Of a stretch of 36,303 nt of DNA, positions 16,185 through 21,551 are shown one piece after another; within the stretch, counting starts at the first letter, position 1, and the number at the start of each line of letters is the position of its first letter. Source of the stretch: Opitutia bacterium (GTDB taxonomy: Bacteria; Verrucomicrobiota; Verrucomicrobiia; Opitutales; Seribacteraceae); contig JABGWZ010000125.1 of NCBI GenBank assembly GCA_018675995.1, forward strand, positions 1 to 36,303, given 5' to 3'. The translations under genes were made by a program, and so were the position numbers. The notes under the pieces were generated by a model. The model had not been told where the DNA came from and did not search any database. It was given only the letters and a program-made list of their open reading frames with translations.

Positions 16185-18647
16185 TTATTCCTTCCGGAAT
16201 ATTCTACCCAACTCCCATGCTGTTTTTCCACCTAGAGCTCTGAGAAAAGGAAGTGCATCCCCATTTTCTTCGGCAACATCTACCGGGGTAATTCCATCTG
16301 GTCCGTATCGGGAATTTATATCCAAGTCATAAGACAGGGCTTTTCTAACCAAACTCTTCTTACCAGAAAAAGCTGCACCGTGCATAATGGTATATCCGTC
16401 CTTAGCCTCGAGTAGAGGATTTGCGTTTTGTGAAAGGAGGAAGTCAACCACTTCCTCTTTACCTGCGACCATAGCGATTAATAGCGGAGTTGCACCAAAG
16501 GTATCCCTTTCATTTACGGAGTGACCGTTATTGAGAAGTCTTTTGATTTTATTTAGGTCGCCCAAACCAGCGGCAACATGGAGGGGATTCTTATTGGATA
16601 CGCCGATTTGCTGGAGAAGCTCAACGATAGATTTGTGTCCACCTGCGGCAGCAAGGTCGACAAGATTTGTGCCATGAATATCAGTCGCATGAGGGTCAGC
16701 AGAAAGGGCAAACAGAATTTCAAGTATGTCTTTTTCGCCCCGCAGAGCAGCAGTCATCCCTGGGGTCTCTCCTTCATCAGTTCGGGCATCCACCTCCGCC
16801 CCATCTTCTAGAAGTAATTCAAGAACTTGAATACTTCTTCCCCAGGCCGCACTGTGCAGCGGGGTGGAGTCGTGCCTTCCGCGAATATTTGGATCTCCTC
16901 CATTATTGAGTAGATAGTCTACAATTCGTGGGTTTCCTTTGTAAGCCGCATAGTGCATGGGGCTATGTCCAAAACGGTCGGTGGCATTAATCAGCGCTCC
17001 ACCTTGTACGGATTGAATAACCGAGTTGAGATTGTTTTGGGATATTGCCTGAAAGATCGGGCCGTTTATTTGATCGATTAGAGTTTGTCCAATATGATCC
17101 GCCAAAACATTCCATCCTGAGCGTTTTTTATTATTTAATTTTATATCTGTGACGAGAGCCCCCTCATTAATGTGCATAGATAGTATATGAAAGTCATCGG
17201 CTATATTTAGAAGTTTGAACTGATCAAAAGTAAGGGAAGAACTTTTGCGAATGCCTTGGTTGGCGTGGTTAATATTTAATTCTAGAGCAAAGTTATTTGC
17301 GTTAAGAAAATTTAAGCGGGATTTTGACAGTCGTCTAAGCGGCCTTTCTTCTCTGATCTCGCGAAGATAATCAATACTTGATAACCATAATTTTTTTCTC
17401 TGTTCGGTAATATGCAAATCATGAATGTCTAAAATTGAGCGCAGTGAATTTGCGGTATTTAACCCTGCGAGTAGCTGTTTAAGGGCAAACTTTTTTTCAA
17501 TTCCTATACCGAGTACAAATGTTGGGTGCAAGGAAACCGTAACCTGTCCATTTTTTTGATAGTTGTTTCTTTCGTGAAAAAGTCCACTCGCCAAAACGAA
17601 GTTTCCATTTGGTGAGGATAAAAGTTCTGTTGCTGTAGCATCAAATCCCGGCAATTTTGAATTCTTATTGATTTGATCATTACTTATAGCTCGAAGGATT
17701 TGATCAATTCCTTCTGTCATGGATTGTCTAAGTTCCTGAGCTGGCAAACTGAGTCGGGCAACGAGGGGCGAGTCACCAGGGATGGAGTTGAGCAGGTCCA
17801 ATTCTTTAGCAGGTGCTTGTATCTTTTTCTTGCCAGTAATATACTCTCTTGAAGTAATTTTGATTGAGCCAATATTAGAAAGCAGGTGGACCCCAAATTG
17901 TCTCGAAAATATTGGATCCATTAATGGCAAGAGTTTTTTCCATCGATCATCCGGCCAACTTTTTTCCAACAGGTTGGCAAAACCACTTCCGTCCAAGTAT
18001 AACCCAATATCAGATTTGGTTGTGAAAAACTGCTTCATTGAACTGGGGAACTTTTTGTCAACAGCTTGTGATGGAATGGCCTTGTATAGTTTTTCAAGAG
18101 ACAGTGCGTTACTAGCAACATCTTTCACAATAGGGCCTAAACCAATTATATATAAAAATCTTCCTTTTCGACCAAACTCGATAGGTATTCCTTTTTTCTG
18201 AAAACGAATCGCTTTTCCGTCTAAAGAAGTAAAACCAAGTGACTCCGCAAGGTTGCAAATGGTTTGATCCATTTTTTGAATATTATTCGCCAGTCCGATC
18301 ATTCCAACAGACAAGGGAACCTGGTCAGAGCTATTTGTCCTGATAAAAAAATGCATTGGGTTTTTAGTATTTATTCCCTTCTCGTTTAAGTTGGAAAGGA
18401 AACTGTAAACCTCCGGGTTGGAAATATTCCACGAATCAAATAAAGGTTTCCAAATCCGGCTTGTTGAAATGTTTGATTTATTTATCAATGCCTCAGCATT
18501 AACAGAAAGGACTAAGAAGGAATCAGCAGGGACTCTGGTTGCAGACTGGGGAATTGGCTTGGATGAAAGAGAGTGACTAATAATGTTTCCAAAGGAAATT
18601 ATAGCCAAGATGGAATTTTTTAAGAAAATGGAAATTGTCTTTGTCAT
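16185..18647 (-). CDS. Large exported ankyrin-repeat protein with an N-terminal DUF3352/DUF4836-like region
   Basis: The 820-residue protein begins with a hydrophobic signal-like stretch (residues 8-25). Residues ~30-530 form one region starting with RVPADSFLVLSVNAEALI, which resembles the openings of DUF3352- or DUF4836-type exported proteins; this match is by eye only. Residues 538-805 contain about eight ankyrin repeats, with clear units such as FGHSPMHYAAYKGNPRIVDY, DSTPLHSAAWGRSIQVLELL, KNPLHVAAGLGDLNKIKRLL and FGATPLLIAMVAGKEEVVDF; one or two units are irregular. Ankyrin repeats mediate protein binding, here probably outside the cytoplasm. It is a single gene convergent with the YgjP-like gene and divergent from ribE across 88 bases. 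The domain layout is clear, the role is not. Confidence 0.85.
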   Translation of the reverse strand: MTKTISIFLKNSILAIISFGNIISHSLSSKPIPQSATRVPADSFLVLSVNAEALINKSNISTSRIWKPLFDSWNISNPEVYSFLSNLNEKGINTKNPMHFFIRTNSSDQVPLSVGMIGLANNIQKMDQTICNLAESLGFTSLDGKAIRFQKKGIPIEFGRKGRFLYIIGLGPIVKDVASNALSLEKLYKAIPSQAVDKKFPSSMKQFFTTKSDIGLYLDGSGFANLLEKSWPDDRWKKLLPLMDPIFSRQFGVHLLSNIGSIKITSREYITGKKKIQAPAKELDLLNSIPGDSPLVARLSLPAQELRQSMTEGIDQILRAISNDQINKNSKLPGFDATATELLSSPNGNFVLASGLFHERNNYQKNGQVTVSLHPTFVLGIGIEKKFALKQLLAGLNTANSLRSILDIHDLHITEQRKKLWLSSIDYLREIREERPLRRLSKSRLNFLNANNFALELNINHANQGIRKSSSLTFDQFKLLNIADDFHILSMHINEGALVTDIKLNNKKRSGWNVLADHIGQTLIDQINGPIFQAISQNNLNSVIQSVQGGALINATDRFGHSPMHYAAYKGNPRIVDYLLNNGGDPNIRGRHDSTPLHSAAWGRSIQVLELLLEDGAEVDARTDEGETPGMTAALRGEKDILEILFALSADPHATDIHGTNLVDLAAAGGHKSIVELLQQIGVSNKNPLHVAAGLGDLNKIKRLLNNGHSVNERDTFGATPLLIAMVAGKEEVVDFLLSQNANPLLEAKDGYTIMHGAAFSGKKSLVRKALSYDLDINSRYGPDGITPVDVAEENGDALPFLRALGGKTAWELGRIFRKE

Positions 18648-18735: not shown

Positions 18736-19341
18736 ATGTTTACAGGAATCGTAGAAAATGTCGGCCGAGTCGTTTCTTTGATTGAAAAGACAGAGTCTTG
18801 GGCTCTTGAATTAGATTTACCCTTTAAGGATAAGGATGGAATGGAGGCTGGTTCAAGCTTGGCTGTTAATGGTTGCTGTTTAACCTTTAAGGAGGATGCC
18901 AATCAACTGGCTCGTTTTGATTTACTCGAGGAAACATTGGAGAAAACGAACTTAGGTGATCTGAAACAAGGGCATTTTGTTAACCTTGAAAGGTCATTAC
19001 CGGCAAATGGAAGGCTTGGGGGGCATTTTGTAACCGGTCATATTGATGCATGCGGTCAAATTGAAGTTTTTGAGGAGAGAGGTAAAAATTTATACTTACA
19101 GGTCAAGGTACCTAAATCATTTCAGCAATATTTAGTTGATAAGGGATGCATCGCAGTTGATGGCTGTTCGCTTACGGTTTGTGATGTAAGCGGATGTTCT
19201 TTTGCAGTTTGGCTTATTCCACATACCTTGGGCAAAACCAATTTGATGAGTAGACAAGTGGGAGATTCTTTAAATTTGGAATTTGATCTTTTGGCAAAGT
19301 ATGTCGAAAAGCTAGCCTTGTCCACTTTGGACAGTAAATAA
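18736..19341 (+). CDS. ribE: Riboflavin synthase alpha chain
   Basis: This enzyme dismutates two 6,7-dimethyl-8-ribityllumazine molecules into riboflavin. The 201 residues form the expected two lumazine-binding repeats: MFTGIVENVGRVV with VNGCCLTF and LEETLEKT in the first, and GGHFVTGHID with VDGCSLTV and IPHTLGKTNL in the second. VNLERSL links them. Length is normal. No FMN riboswitch was recognised in the 88 bases upstream. It is the first gene of a tight set: the UDG-like gene starts two bases after its stop, then thiN, then an unknown gene, ending at a strong terminator. Other rib genes are not in the window. Identification is certain. Confidence 0.98.
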   Translation: MFTGIVENVGRVVSLIEKTESWALELDLPFKDKDGMEAGSSLAVNGCCLTFKEDANQLARFDLLEETLEKTNLGDLKQGHFVNLERSLPANGRLGGHFVTGHIDACGQIEVFEERGKNLYLQVKVPKSFQQYLVDKGCIAVDGCSLTVCDVSGCSFAVWLIPHTLGKTNLMSRQVGDSLNLEFDLLAKYVEKLALSTLDSK

Positions 19342-19343
19342 GA

Positions 19344-20282
19344 ATGAATACTGAAGAAGCTAGCCTTGCTCTTCTTGAGGAGCTCAAGAGACTAAGAGGA
19401 GAAGGCCTTCGTGAGGTTTATTTGGAGGAAGACACTTTACTTGGCTTAGAAAAAGCCCTTGGAGTTACTTCAGTCACTAAAGTTGAAGGTATTAGCACTG
19501 TTTCTCCAGAACAATCAATGGTCAAGAAACAGCCGGCACCTGTTGCTCTAACTCCTTCTTCGGATAATAAGGAAACGAAATCGATTCAGGTGGAGGGATT
19601 AAATAATAGCCCTGTAAATATTGAGAAGTTTCAGTCCATTCCTGAGATAGCTTTACCAGAGGGAGATAAACATACTCAGTGGGAATGGCTTAAAGGTGAA
19701 GTTGAGAATTGTACAGTCGCTAACAGTGAACTCAATGATGATTCAAAAATCCTTTTTGGGCGTGGAAGTTTAGATGCAGAGCTGTTTTTTTGCGGGGAAG
19801 CTCCAAGCGAGGAGGACGATCTGACTGGGGCAGTTTTCGGGGGGCAGGTTGGATCGCTTTTGACTAAAATTATTGAAGCTATGGGTTATTCGGATTCCAC
19901 TGTATATTACTCTAATATTCTTCATTGGCGTCCAAAGCATGAAATGTCCTATGGGCACCGACCTCCAACCGAAGCAGAGATGAAATTTGCTCTTCCTTAT
20001 CTTTTAGCCCAGGTCGATATTATTAAGCCAAAAGTTATTATAGCTTTGGGTAAAAACGCCACGGATGGATTTTTAGGTTCTGACCCAAAGCGTAGGCTAG
20101 GGGATGTACGAGGGAATTGGAAAGACTTTTCGGGTGTGCCCCTTATGATTACTTATCACCCTTCATACTTGCTCCATAACCCCAGTAAGTCGAGTAAGAG
20201 GAAAGTTTGGGAGGACATGCTCAAGGTGATGGAGAGGGTAGGGTTAAAAATTACTGAAAAGCAGAAGGGTTTTTTCCTTTAA
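19344..20282 (+). CDS. Uracil-DNA glycosylase superfamily protein (family 4/5-like) lacking most Fe-S cysteines
   Basis: Predicted to excise uracil or another damaged base. The 312-residue protein has an N-terminal extension of ~110 residues (helix, then a low-complexity Pro/Ser/Thr linker), then the UDG domain: ILFGRG, motif A FFCGEAPSEEDDLTG (149-162), the strand YYSNILHWRP, PKVIIALGKNA and motif HPSYLLHNP (272-280). Families 4 and 5 bind a [4Fe-4S] cluster with four cysteines. Here only C123 is retained; the other aligned positions read A126, W195 and A216. Motif A has S instead of G in GEAPG. It lies two bases after ribE, so it is translationally linked to the cofactor operon. The superfamily is confident; activity without a cluster is an open question. 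Confidence 0.88.
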   Translation: MNTEEASLALLEELKRLRGEGLREVYLEEDTLLGLEKALGVTSVTKVEGISTVSPEQSMVKKQPAPVALTPSSDNKETKSIQVEGLNNSPVNIEKFQSIPEIALPEGDKHTQWEWLKGEVENCTVANSELNDDSKILFGRGSLDAELFFCGEAPSEEDDLTGAVFGGQVGSLLTKIIEAMGYSDSTVYYSNILHWRPKHEMSYGHRPPTEAEMKFALPYLLAQVDIIKPKVIIALGKNATDGFLGSDPKRRLGDVRGNWKDFSGVPLMITYHPSYLLHNPSKSSKRKVWEDMLKVMERVGLKITEKQKGFFL

Positions 20283-20307: not shown

Positions 20308-20949
20308 ATGTCCGTTGAGAAAATACTACTCGTTTTAGGCGGCGAACCACCAGACGAGGATTTATTGCATTGGCGTTTTGAGGATTGTGACCTTACCGTA
20401 GCAGTGGATTCGGGGTGGTTGGCTTGTCGCAGTGCCGGGTTGCTACCAGATATTCTTATTGGTGACATGGATAGTTGCGGAGAGACAGATTTACAAAACG
20501 GCATTCCGACATCGGTCCGAGTTATTATAGATTCTGATCAAAATATAACTGATTTTCAAAAGGCTCTTAATCTTATTAACTCTGATTATTCTCCCCTCGA
20601 GATTGTAATTCTTGGTGGATTTGGAAAAAGAACGGATCATTTGTTAAATAATCTTTCCATTGTGAGCGGTATTCAGGATGATATTATTGTGGTATTGGAT
20701 TCAGGTGACGAATGGATCAGAAGGGTGACTCCATCAACTTCGGCTGAAGTAAGAGGGATGGAGGGGGCAACAATCAGTTTGATTCCGCAAAGAATAAATA
20801 CAGTCGTTCATTCGTCTGGGTTGAAATGGGAGTTGGAGAATGAAGTACTTAGCTGGAGTTACCAATTTAGCCAAAGTAATGAGTTCGTATCTGATTTTTC
20901 AAAAATATCTGTTCTTTCTGGTGCACTGTTAATTATATTACAAAAATAA
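20308..20949 (+). CDS. thiN: Thiamine pyrophosphokinase
   Basis: The enzyme transfers pyrophosphate from ATP to thiamine, giving thiamine diphosphate. The 213 residues contain VAVDSG (32-37), IGDMDS (51-56), the acidic DSDQNITDFQKAL segment and ILGGFGKRTDHLLNN (101-115), all of the diagnostic TPK metal and ATP-binding strings. The C-terminal TPK B1-binding part is more diverged. Length agrees with bacterial TPK (about 210-220). It follows the UDG-like gene by 25 bases. Pairing TPK with riboflavin synthase suggests a vitamin cofactor operon in which thiamine is salvaged and then activated, since no de novo thi genes are seen here. No TPP riboswitch was recognised. Confidence 0.93.
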   Translation: MSVEKILLVLGGEPPDEDLLHWRFEDCDLTVAVDSGWLACRSAGLLPDILIGDMDSCGETDLQNGIPTSVRVIIDSDQNITDFQKALNLINSDYSPLEIVILGGFGKRTDHLLNNLSIVSGIQDDIIVVLDSGDEWIRRVTPSTSAEVRGMEGATISLIPQRINTVVHSSGLKWELENEVLSWSYQFSQSNEFVSDFSKISVLSGALLIILQK

Positions 20950-20984: not shown

Positions 20985-21551
20985 ATGAACTTTTTTCGTG
21001 GTCCGTCTGTTTTATTAAAATTAAATATTAAGGCTCTTAAGCGAGTCGTTAAAAATCGTTTTCTGGTTAAGAAATTGATTTTATTTAATAAGAAATCTCA
21101 CCCGGTTCATTCCATTCATAGGGTCTGTGCCTTTGGAGATGATCCGAACAGTAAGTTCTTGCCTAAAGATATAGAAGATTTTCTTTTACGGTTAACCTGT
21201 AAGGAAATTGTTAATCAGTCAAAGGGTACAAATCCCCTTTTTTGGAAAGCAGTATTGGCAATGGATGATACTCCCTTGGTAACGGTTTACCCAGGAGCAA
21301 AGAATTGTTATGTTTACGAACAAGTTCAGAATTCTAGATTAAATGATCCGAAAAAAATAATTAGAAAGCTTGAATTAGTTTCAAACGAATACCTAAAAGT
21401 TTCCAGCAACGGTTTGGATTTGTTAATTCATCGCTTATTTCCCGATCAACCTGAGTTTCGACTAAATAACGATAATTGGATTGCATACAATGGATTGGAT
21501 GCTGCCCATAAAATCTTACAATCCCGTAAAAGAAGAAGGATTCCTTATTAA
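20985..21551 (+). CDS. Hypothetical protein, last gene of the riboflavin/thiamine operon
   Basis: An ATG at 20985 gives 188 residues. I do not recognise the family. The N-terminus is strongly basic (RGPSVLLKLNIKALKRVVKN), with no signal peptide, and the C-terminus ends in a basic tail (SRKRRRIPY). The middle contains VCAFGDDP, LPKDIEDFLLRL, and NPLFWKAVLAMDDTPLVTVYPGAKN, compatible with a small alpha/beta domain. Basic ends could mean nucleic acid or ribosome contact, which is only a guess. It lies 35 bases behind thiN on the same strand and its stop is immediately followed by the operon terminator, so it belongs to this transcript. Coding status is well supported by length and position. Confidence 0.75.
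   Translation: MNFFRGPSVLLKLNIKALKRVVKNRFLVKKLILFNKKSHPVHSIHRVCAFGDDPNSKFLPKDIEDFLLRLTCKEIVNQSKGTNPLFWKAVLAMDDTPLVTVYPGAKNCYVYEQVQNSRLNDPKKIIRKLELVSNEYLKVSSNGLDLLIHRLFPDQPEFRLNNDNWIAYNGLDAAHKILQSRKRRRIPY

Follow-up and report, generated by a model that had tools for sequence, protein, structure and literature searches.

The window (the whole stretch of DNA that was analysed, 36,303 nucleotides) comes from an assembly of 2.6 Mb in 293 contigs that is 91.9% complete, and the nearest named relatives carry the labels Opitutales, Opitutia or Verrucomicrobia. At 19344..20282 on the forward strand it holds an intact open reading frame for a 312-residue protein that belongs to the uracil-DNA glycosylase (UDG) superfamily by its match to Pfam PF03167 (E 2.3e-30) and that is probably a cluster-free protein derived from family 4. 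The gene lies directly between ribE (riboflavin synthase; 18736..19341, +) and a gene for a thiN-like thiamine diphosphokinase (20308..20949, +), both recognized from their reading frames and family matches. With ribE ending at 19341 and the ATG of the UDG gene at 19344, the translational coupling proposed in the initial annotation is plausible, but the same arrangement occurs in cysteine-rich relatives. Using the window's own proteins as queries, and with some loci too short to tell, ribE was found at most 600 bases upstream on the same strand in 39 of 149 homologous loci and the thiN-like gene at most 300 bases downstream on the same strand in 29; both neighbors are present at all eight loci of the subclade to which the window protein belongs (see below). 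Because the gene order is common to cysteine-rich relatives it does not explain the loss of the cluster, and operon function can be ruled out as the cause of that loss, ribE adjoining cysteine-rich homologues too. Elsewhere in the window, an 820-residue protein (16185-18647, -) has ankyrin repeats in its carboxyl-terminal half and an amino-terminal part that is weakly DUF4836-like, below that family's cut-off; a 188-residue open reading frame after thiN (20985-21551, +) has no Pfam or NCBIfam match, and a relative of it was seen, among the loci scanned, only in subclade member L010 and its duplicate L039.

The protein begins with a two-helix module (residues 3-38; 19350..19457, +), identified from the alignment and from AlphaFold2, in which L14 and G21 are nearly invariant (40-row alignment) and helices are predicted at residues 3-19 and 29-38 (predicted local distance difference test [pLDDT] of those ten-residue blocks 79-89). 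A disordered linker follows (residues 44-85; 19473..19598, +; pLDDT below 50 at 44-66 and 68-85). The low-complexity extension of about 110 residues that had been described for this protein is thus only partly of that nature, with disorder at about residues 44-85 and the two predicted helices before it; a similar extension of helices plus linker is present in relatives that keep more cysteines. At the other end is a conserved tail, KQKGFFL (residues 306-312; 20259..20279, +; alignment), which appears in relatives as ISEKQRG[FY]F, is conserved in most members of the class, including four-cysteine proteins, and is not conserved in 30 loci of other classes (L092-L121). The tail resembles a beta-clamp-binding motif and is a candidate for one.

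Among proteins of known structure, the best matches by sequence are Thermus thermophilus UDGa (Tth UDGa) and Thermotoga maritima TM0511. The window protein scores 118.4 bits against the NCBIfam model for family 4 (TIGR00758), below its cut-off of 125.3, and 98.6 bits against the model for UdgX (TIGR03914), far below its cut-off of 189.95. A single-sequence AlphaFold2 model was discarded (pLDDT 35.7); with the 40-row alignment the mean pLDDT was 85.7, and between residues 101 and 300 all but one of the twenty ten-residue blocks reach 94-98, the exception being the block that holds H205 (201-210), at 87. In structural comparison (VIA-align 2) the modeled fold comes closest to family 4 (1vk2, Z 26.6, root mean square deviation [rmsd] 1.7 over 187 residues; 1ui0, Z 24.9, rmsd 1.9 over 183), with UdgX at about the same level (6ajo, Z 25.2, rmsd 2.0 over 192; the listed UdgX entries span Z 23.6 to 25.2). 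Family 5 UDGb (2d3y, Z 19.1) and BdiUNG (5gn2, Z 14.3) share the superfamily fold but are structurally more distant than 1vk2. In both trees described below, which are made up of family 4-like rows with one UdgX row (in the 147-row tree only) and no family 5 or BdiUNG row, the window protein nests among family 4 proteins and not in a known cluster-free family, the check that the initial annotation had proposed.

Alignment to 1ui0 and to TM0511 (1l9g/1vk2) shows that the four columns that hold the ligands of the iron-sulfur cluster read C123, A126, W195 and A216 in the window protein, bearing out the earlier claim that three of the four cluster cysteines are replaced. C123 (19710..19712, +) is the only ligand left; A126 (19719..19721, +) replaces ligand 2, W195 replaces ligand 3 (Tth C84; codons of H194 and W195 at 19923..19928, +) and A216 (19989..19991, +) replaces ligand 4. 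The protein has two cysteines in all, C123 and C150, and a four-cysteine cluster is therefore impossible in the monomer; an alternative set of four conserved cysteines, named beforehand as a refutation, is excluded by the same count. C150 (19791-19793) stands just before motif A in a column that is cysteine in 60 of 147 rows and valine or isoleucine elsewhere. Seven close relatives from separate genomes (L004-L010) likewise lack these three ligands, which rules out chance or assembly error as the origin of the loss, and the proteins of two of these relatives are also found in records not titled as metagenome-assembled genomes (L033 and L036). Judged from these residues, it is very unlikely that members of the window subclade, which keep a single ligand, still bind a cluster.

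We placed this loss in a wider set of homologues. A protein search gave matches in 50 of 57 genomes, its own included, with 59 loci in the contig database, and 20 further regions were taken from the matches in these 50 genomes; the family 4 model gave matches in 182 of the phylum's 193 genomes, and 30 loci plus another 20 regions were taken from these. The final set consisted of 149 non-identical homologues and two Protein Data Bank (PDB) references (151 rows), the homologues being stop-to-stop reading frames that may include residues before the true start. All but one of the homologues (L090, Bacillota) are from Verrucomicrobiota, and the non-Verrucomicrobiota sequences compared (1ui0, TM0511, 4zbx and L090) have four cysteines each. 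Four fragments (L072, L086, L139 and L140) were left out of the 147-row tree, in which L141 and L138 form long branches of unsure placement; a more careful tree of 90 rows, without the UdgX row L160, reached a bootstrap correlation of 0.989 and is not fully settled. Over the 151 rows all four cysteines are kept in 42 (40 homologues and the two references), 39 read Cys-Cys-Trp-Cys (L160 counted in, although its column 195 is Trp in the multiple alignment but His by profile alignment of UdgX), 15 read Trp-Ala-Phe-Cys, nine read Asp-Cys-Trp-Cys, eight are of the window type (Cys-Ala/Ser-Trp-Ala/Ser) and 38 are of other kinds.

Rows without Cys195, except L160, form a single clade of 104 rows in the 147-row tree (SH-aLRT 92), and in the 90-row tree a single branch separates the 67 such rows from the others (UFBoot 99, SH-aLRT 94), so that the loss of Cys195 needs one change there. 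Within the 104-row clade, which makes up 63% of the tree length, residue 195 is W, F or Y in 102 rows (L in L082, Q in L084); outside it, all four cysteines are kept in 42 of 43 rows. The fewest changes needed on the 147-row tree are 12 for ligand 1, nine for ligand 2, six for ligand 4 and two for ligand 3, one of the two being L160, because all other rows without Cys195 form one clade. Ligand 3 thus seems, as reconstructed on these trees, to have been the first to go: it seems to have become aromatic once, the other ligands then decaying repeatedly and almost only inside that clade. The sequence evidence agrees with the suggestion of a cluster-free UDG subfamily, but the window protein is not alone in its loss, ligand 3 being gone in 104 of 147 rows.

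The window subclade is, as far as the alignments indicate, one of several end points of ligand loss. A second group (L081, L082, L084 and L085) lacks all four cysteines and also has His in place of N80; these proteins are of Verrucomicrobiaceae type and lie on another branch than the window protein. C216 outlasts ligands 1 to 3 in many rows, for example the 15 Trp-Ala-Phe-Cys rows, and its persistence is not explained by a simple decay model. Another 18 family 4 matches from the phylum are weak or incomplete; of these, 12 have all four cysteines and three are partial. In the other three, L204, L205 and L208 (the last a very weak match), which belong to one family (f48) and are off the trees, a ligand column deviates, and with these three in view ligand loss may extend beyond the aromatic clade. 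The opposite case was seen in family f37 (L198-L203), where all four cluster cysteines are kept and motif A is lost (for example, VVNGAQLPGDD in L199).

The window subclade itself comprises eight rows (the window protein and L004-L010; SH-aLRT 100 in the 147-row tree, and 100/100 for the seven members present in the 90-row tree) on a long stem branch of 0.37 changes per column. Its changes were scored against the remaining 61 rows of the Opitutales-type clade, a count that excludes the long-branch L141, and are given with Tth UDGa numbering (E41, G42, E47, F54, N80, N89 and H155 as in PMC5387724, K83 as in PMC10776899; G44 and V55 were assigned by counting from the published positions). Several uracil-pocket and catalytic residues are kept: F165 (Tth F54, uracil pocket), N191 (Tth N80, which reads uracil; 19914..19916, +) and the catalytic H272 (Tth H155) in all eight members, and E152 (Tth E41) in seven, with D in L010. 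H272 opens motif B, the HPSYLL motif already recognized in the initial annotation, at residues 272-277 (20157..20174, +; alignment). The active-site changes listed here, above all the Asn to His change at residue 205, were not part of that annotation. Motif A reads GEAPSEEDD (residues 151-159; 19794..19820, +; alignment), with S155 for G44 and D158 for E47; across the subclade the G44 column has become N in six members, S in one and Y in one, and E47 has become D in all eight. Next to F165, V55 is replaced by G166 in all eight (codons of F165 and G166 at 19836..19841, +; alignment). In the K83 column N194 has become H in all eight members; this residue is K in all 42 four-cysteine rows. Finally, H205 (19956..19958, +) stands in the column of Tth N89 and, gap-free to ligand 4 in a HMMER alignment with the UdgX H109S mutant, of UdgX residue 109 (roles as described in PMC5387724 and PMC10359453). 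N205 has become H in seven of the eight members and D in L010. Over the 147 rows residue 205 is Asn in 132 and His in eight (the seven subclade members and L160); the remaining seven rows have D in L010 and L089 and S, S, E, K and P elsewhere.

In PMC5387724, N89 of Tth UDGa is proposed to position the water that attacks, a role that PMC10359453 assigns to H109 in UdgX. PMC5387724 also describes a drop in k2 of about two orders of magnitude for E47A and of almost 6-fold for N89A; given the changes in motif A and motif 3, activity in the subclade may therefore be low or altered. Compared with family 4 UDGa (1ui0, TM0511), the window protein is alike in fold, phylogenetic place, motif B and the residues equivalent to E41, F54, N80 and H155; it differs in keeping one of four cluster ligands, in a motif A of GEAPS rather than GE(A/G)PG, in D for E47, H for K83 and H for N89, and in a longer motif 3 loop. 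Because it departs from family 4 in its cluster ligands, its motif A and its Asn89, the protein does not belong to family 4 in the strict sense; it is derived from family 4 and most likely works like it.

Purifying selection on the core of the subclade is strong. By the Nei-Gojobori method, dN/dS for residues 112-300 was 0.017, 0.031, 0.042 and 0.058 in those four subclade pairs, out of 28, whose dS was at most 1.1; in the other 24 pairs dS was above 1.2 or undefined, and dN/dS was 0.034-0.100 where defined. For comparison, four of eight chosen cysteine-rich pairs, with dS below 1, gave 0.057-0.082. PF03167 matches were found in 23 of 27 genomes of the genus, and six of the eight genomes of the subclade have the cluster-free protein as their sole such match, among them two that are 95% (G009) and 93% (G004) complete. 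The other two, G000 and G017, have two matches each, the second one in G000 being SMUG-like by its GMNPG motif (motif as given in PMC10359453), and the window-type protein may thus not be the only UDG there.

SufB is present in the host genome and the cluster motif of MutY is intact and canonical, which rules out a general loss of iron-sulfur proteins. Endonuclease III, whose cluster motif is C-x6-C-x2-C-x5-C, was also inspected: in the host genome (L187, C271:6539-7102) and in relatives (L209-L237, with L220 not found) this motif occurs in none of 29 reading frames, 27 of which have, by eye, C-x4-C-x4-C-x2-C instead, so that Endonuclease III is a second repair enzyme here with an altered cluster motif.

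We favor, with a probability of roughly 0.6, the reading that the window protein is a family 4-derived UDG that is active in the absence of a [4Fe-4S] cluster. That it is probably an active glycosylase follows from the low dN/dS and from its being the sole PF03167 match in six subclade genomes. The cluster would then have had a purely structural part, fixing the loop that joins ligands 3 and 4; the aromatic residue that replaced ligand 3 may, by homology, pack at the former cluster site, and the remaining cysteines would have been free to decay after this replacement. Uracil would be excised in the manner of Tth UDGa: N191 and F165 would hold the base, H272 would stabilize it as it leaves, and H205 would replace Asn89 in positioning the attacking water. 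A cluster-free enzyme is plausible because in the family 4 UDGs of Pyrococcus furiosus and Archaeoglobus fulgidus a Cys to Ser change is described as costing only about 40% of activity (PMC5295032). The loss of Cys195 is, taken singly, no proof of cluster loss in the cysteine-rich relatives, because UdgX, described as a 4Fe-4S protein (PMC10359453), has His and not Cys in the ligand 3 column by profile alignment; by this analogy, proteins that lack only Cys195 may still bind a cluster.

The residue at position 205 may also allow a different chemistry, that of an independently evolved UdgX-like enzyme in which H205 would attack C1' after uracil leaves and become covalently linked to the abasic site, with E152 as its dyad partner; we consider this unlikely. 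Among the 147 rows His is confined at this position to the window subclade and the UdgX row, and E152 is the equivalent of UdgX E52, which is described as the dyad partner of H109; in the same account complex formation by UdgX was not detectably affected when Q53 was changed to A (PMC10359453), hence A153 is no bar. The window protein shares with UdgX (M. smegmatis; 6ajo, 6ail) its fold, the motif A Glu, the His in the H109 column and the lack of Cys in the ligand 3 column, but motif A (GEAPS) is not GEQPG, R107 and the KRRIH loop are absent (the loop reads RPKHEMSYGH), ligands 2 and 4 are also lost, and the UdgX model score is about half its cut-off. The loop before residue 205 is five residues longer than in Tth UDGa, as it is in relatives with Asn there, but four residues shorter than in M. 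smegmatis UdgX. Outside the subclade, Asn205 has been lost without His in six rows (S, S, D, E, K and P), and hence the column tolerates change, whereas the D205 of L010 is not plainly a counter-example, since the PDB title of 6l6s describes UdgX H109E crosslinked to DNA. A family 4 Asn to His variant, searched for as N89H, has no occurrence in PMC5387724. Were this unlikely reading to hold, the subclade would be a second, independent origin of self-crosslinking UDGs, in a cluster-free family 4 branch by change of Asn89 to His and with no R-loop, GEQPG or cluster, a proposal that we hold in equal doubt.

Catalysis might instead have been changed or lost, with the protein binding DNA or acting on another base and uracil excision not its task. 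The altered G44, E47, V55, K83 and N89 columns, the long stem branch and the additional PF03167 matches in G000 and G017 are consistent with such a shift, but F165, N191 and H272 are invariant in all eight members, dN/dS is low, and the sole PF03167 match in most subclade genomes, two of them 93-95% complete, is the protein itself; we find this account improbable. Retention of metal through other ligands, either as a cluster between two chains or as a single metal on C123 and His 194, 199 and 205, seems very improbable: C123 is kept in all eight members, and His 194 and (in seven of eight) His 205 were gained where Cys 126 and 216 were lost, but conserved cysteines are limited to C123 and C150, L010 lacks both H199 and H205, and the K83 column, to which residue 194 belongs, is described as contacting N80 and not the cluster (PMC10776899).

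The favored reading, a cluster-free enzyme at work, has a precedent in the 'clusterless' MutY proteins, another lineage of DNA glycosylases in which the four cluster cysteines are missing (PMC11078426), although these have an unrelated HhH fold and are a precedent for cluster loss only. No description of cluster-free family 4 UDGs was found in the open-access literature, subscription papers being outside the scope of that search. The window subclade is a real, selected and probably cluster-free branch of family 4 UDGs in which the active site has been rebuilt. The role of iron-sulfur clusters in DNA-repair enzymes is an open question, and this family is a natural experiment on it: the clade forms an evolutionary series from four ligands to three and then to one or none, in which the catalytic fold persists and the change of ligand 3 to an aromatic residue apparently came first, and comparing its members would reveal directly what goes with the cluster. 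The Asn to His change, in turn, bears on whether one substitution in a family 4 enzyme suffices to start UdgX-like crosslinking, which matters for uracil mapping in genomes.
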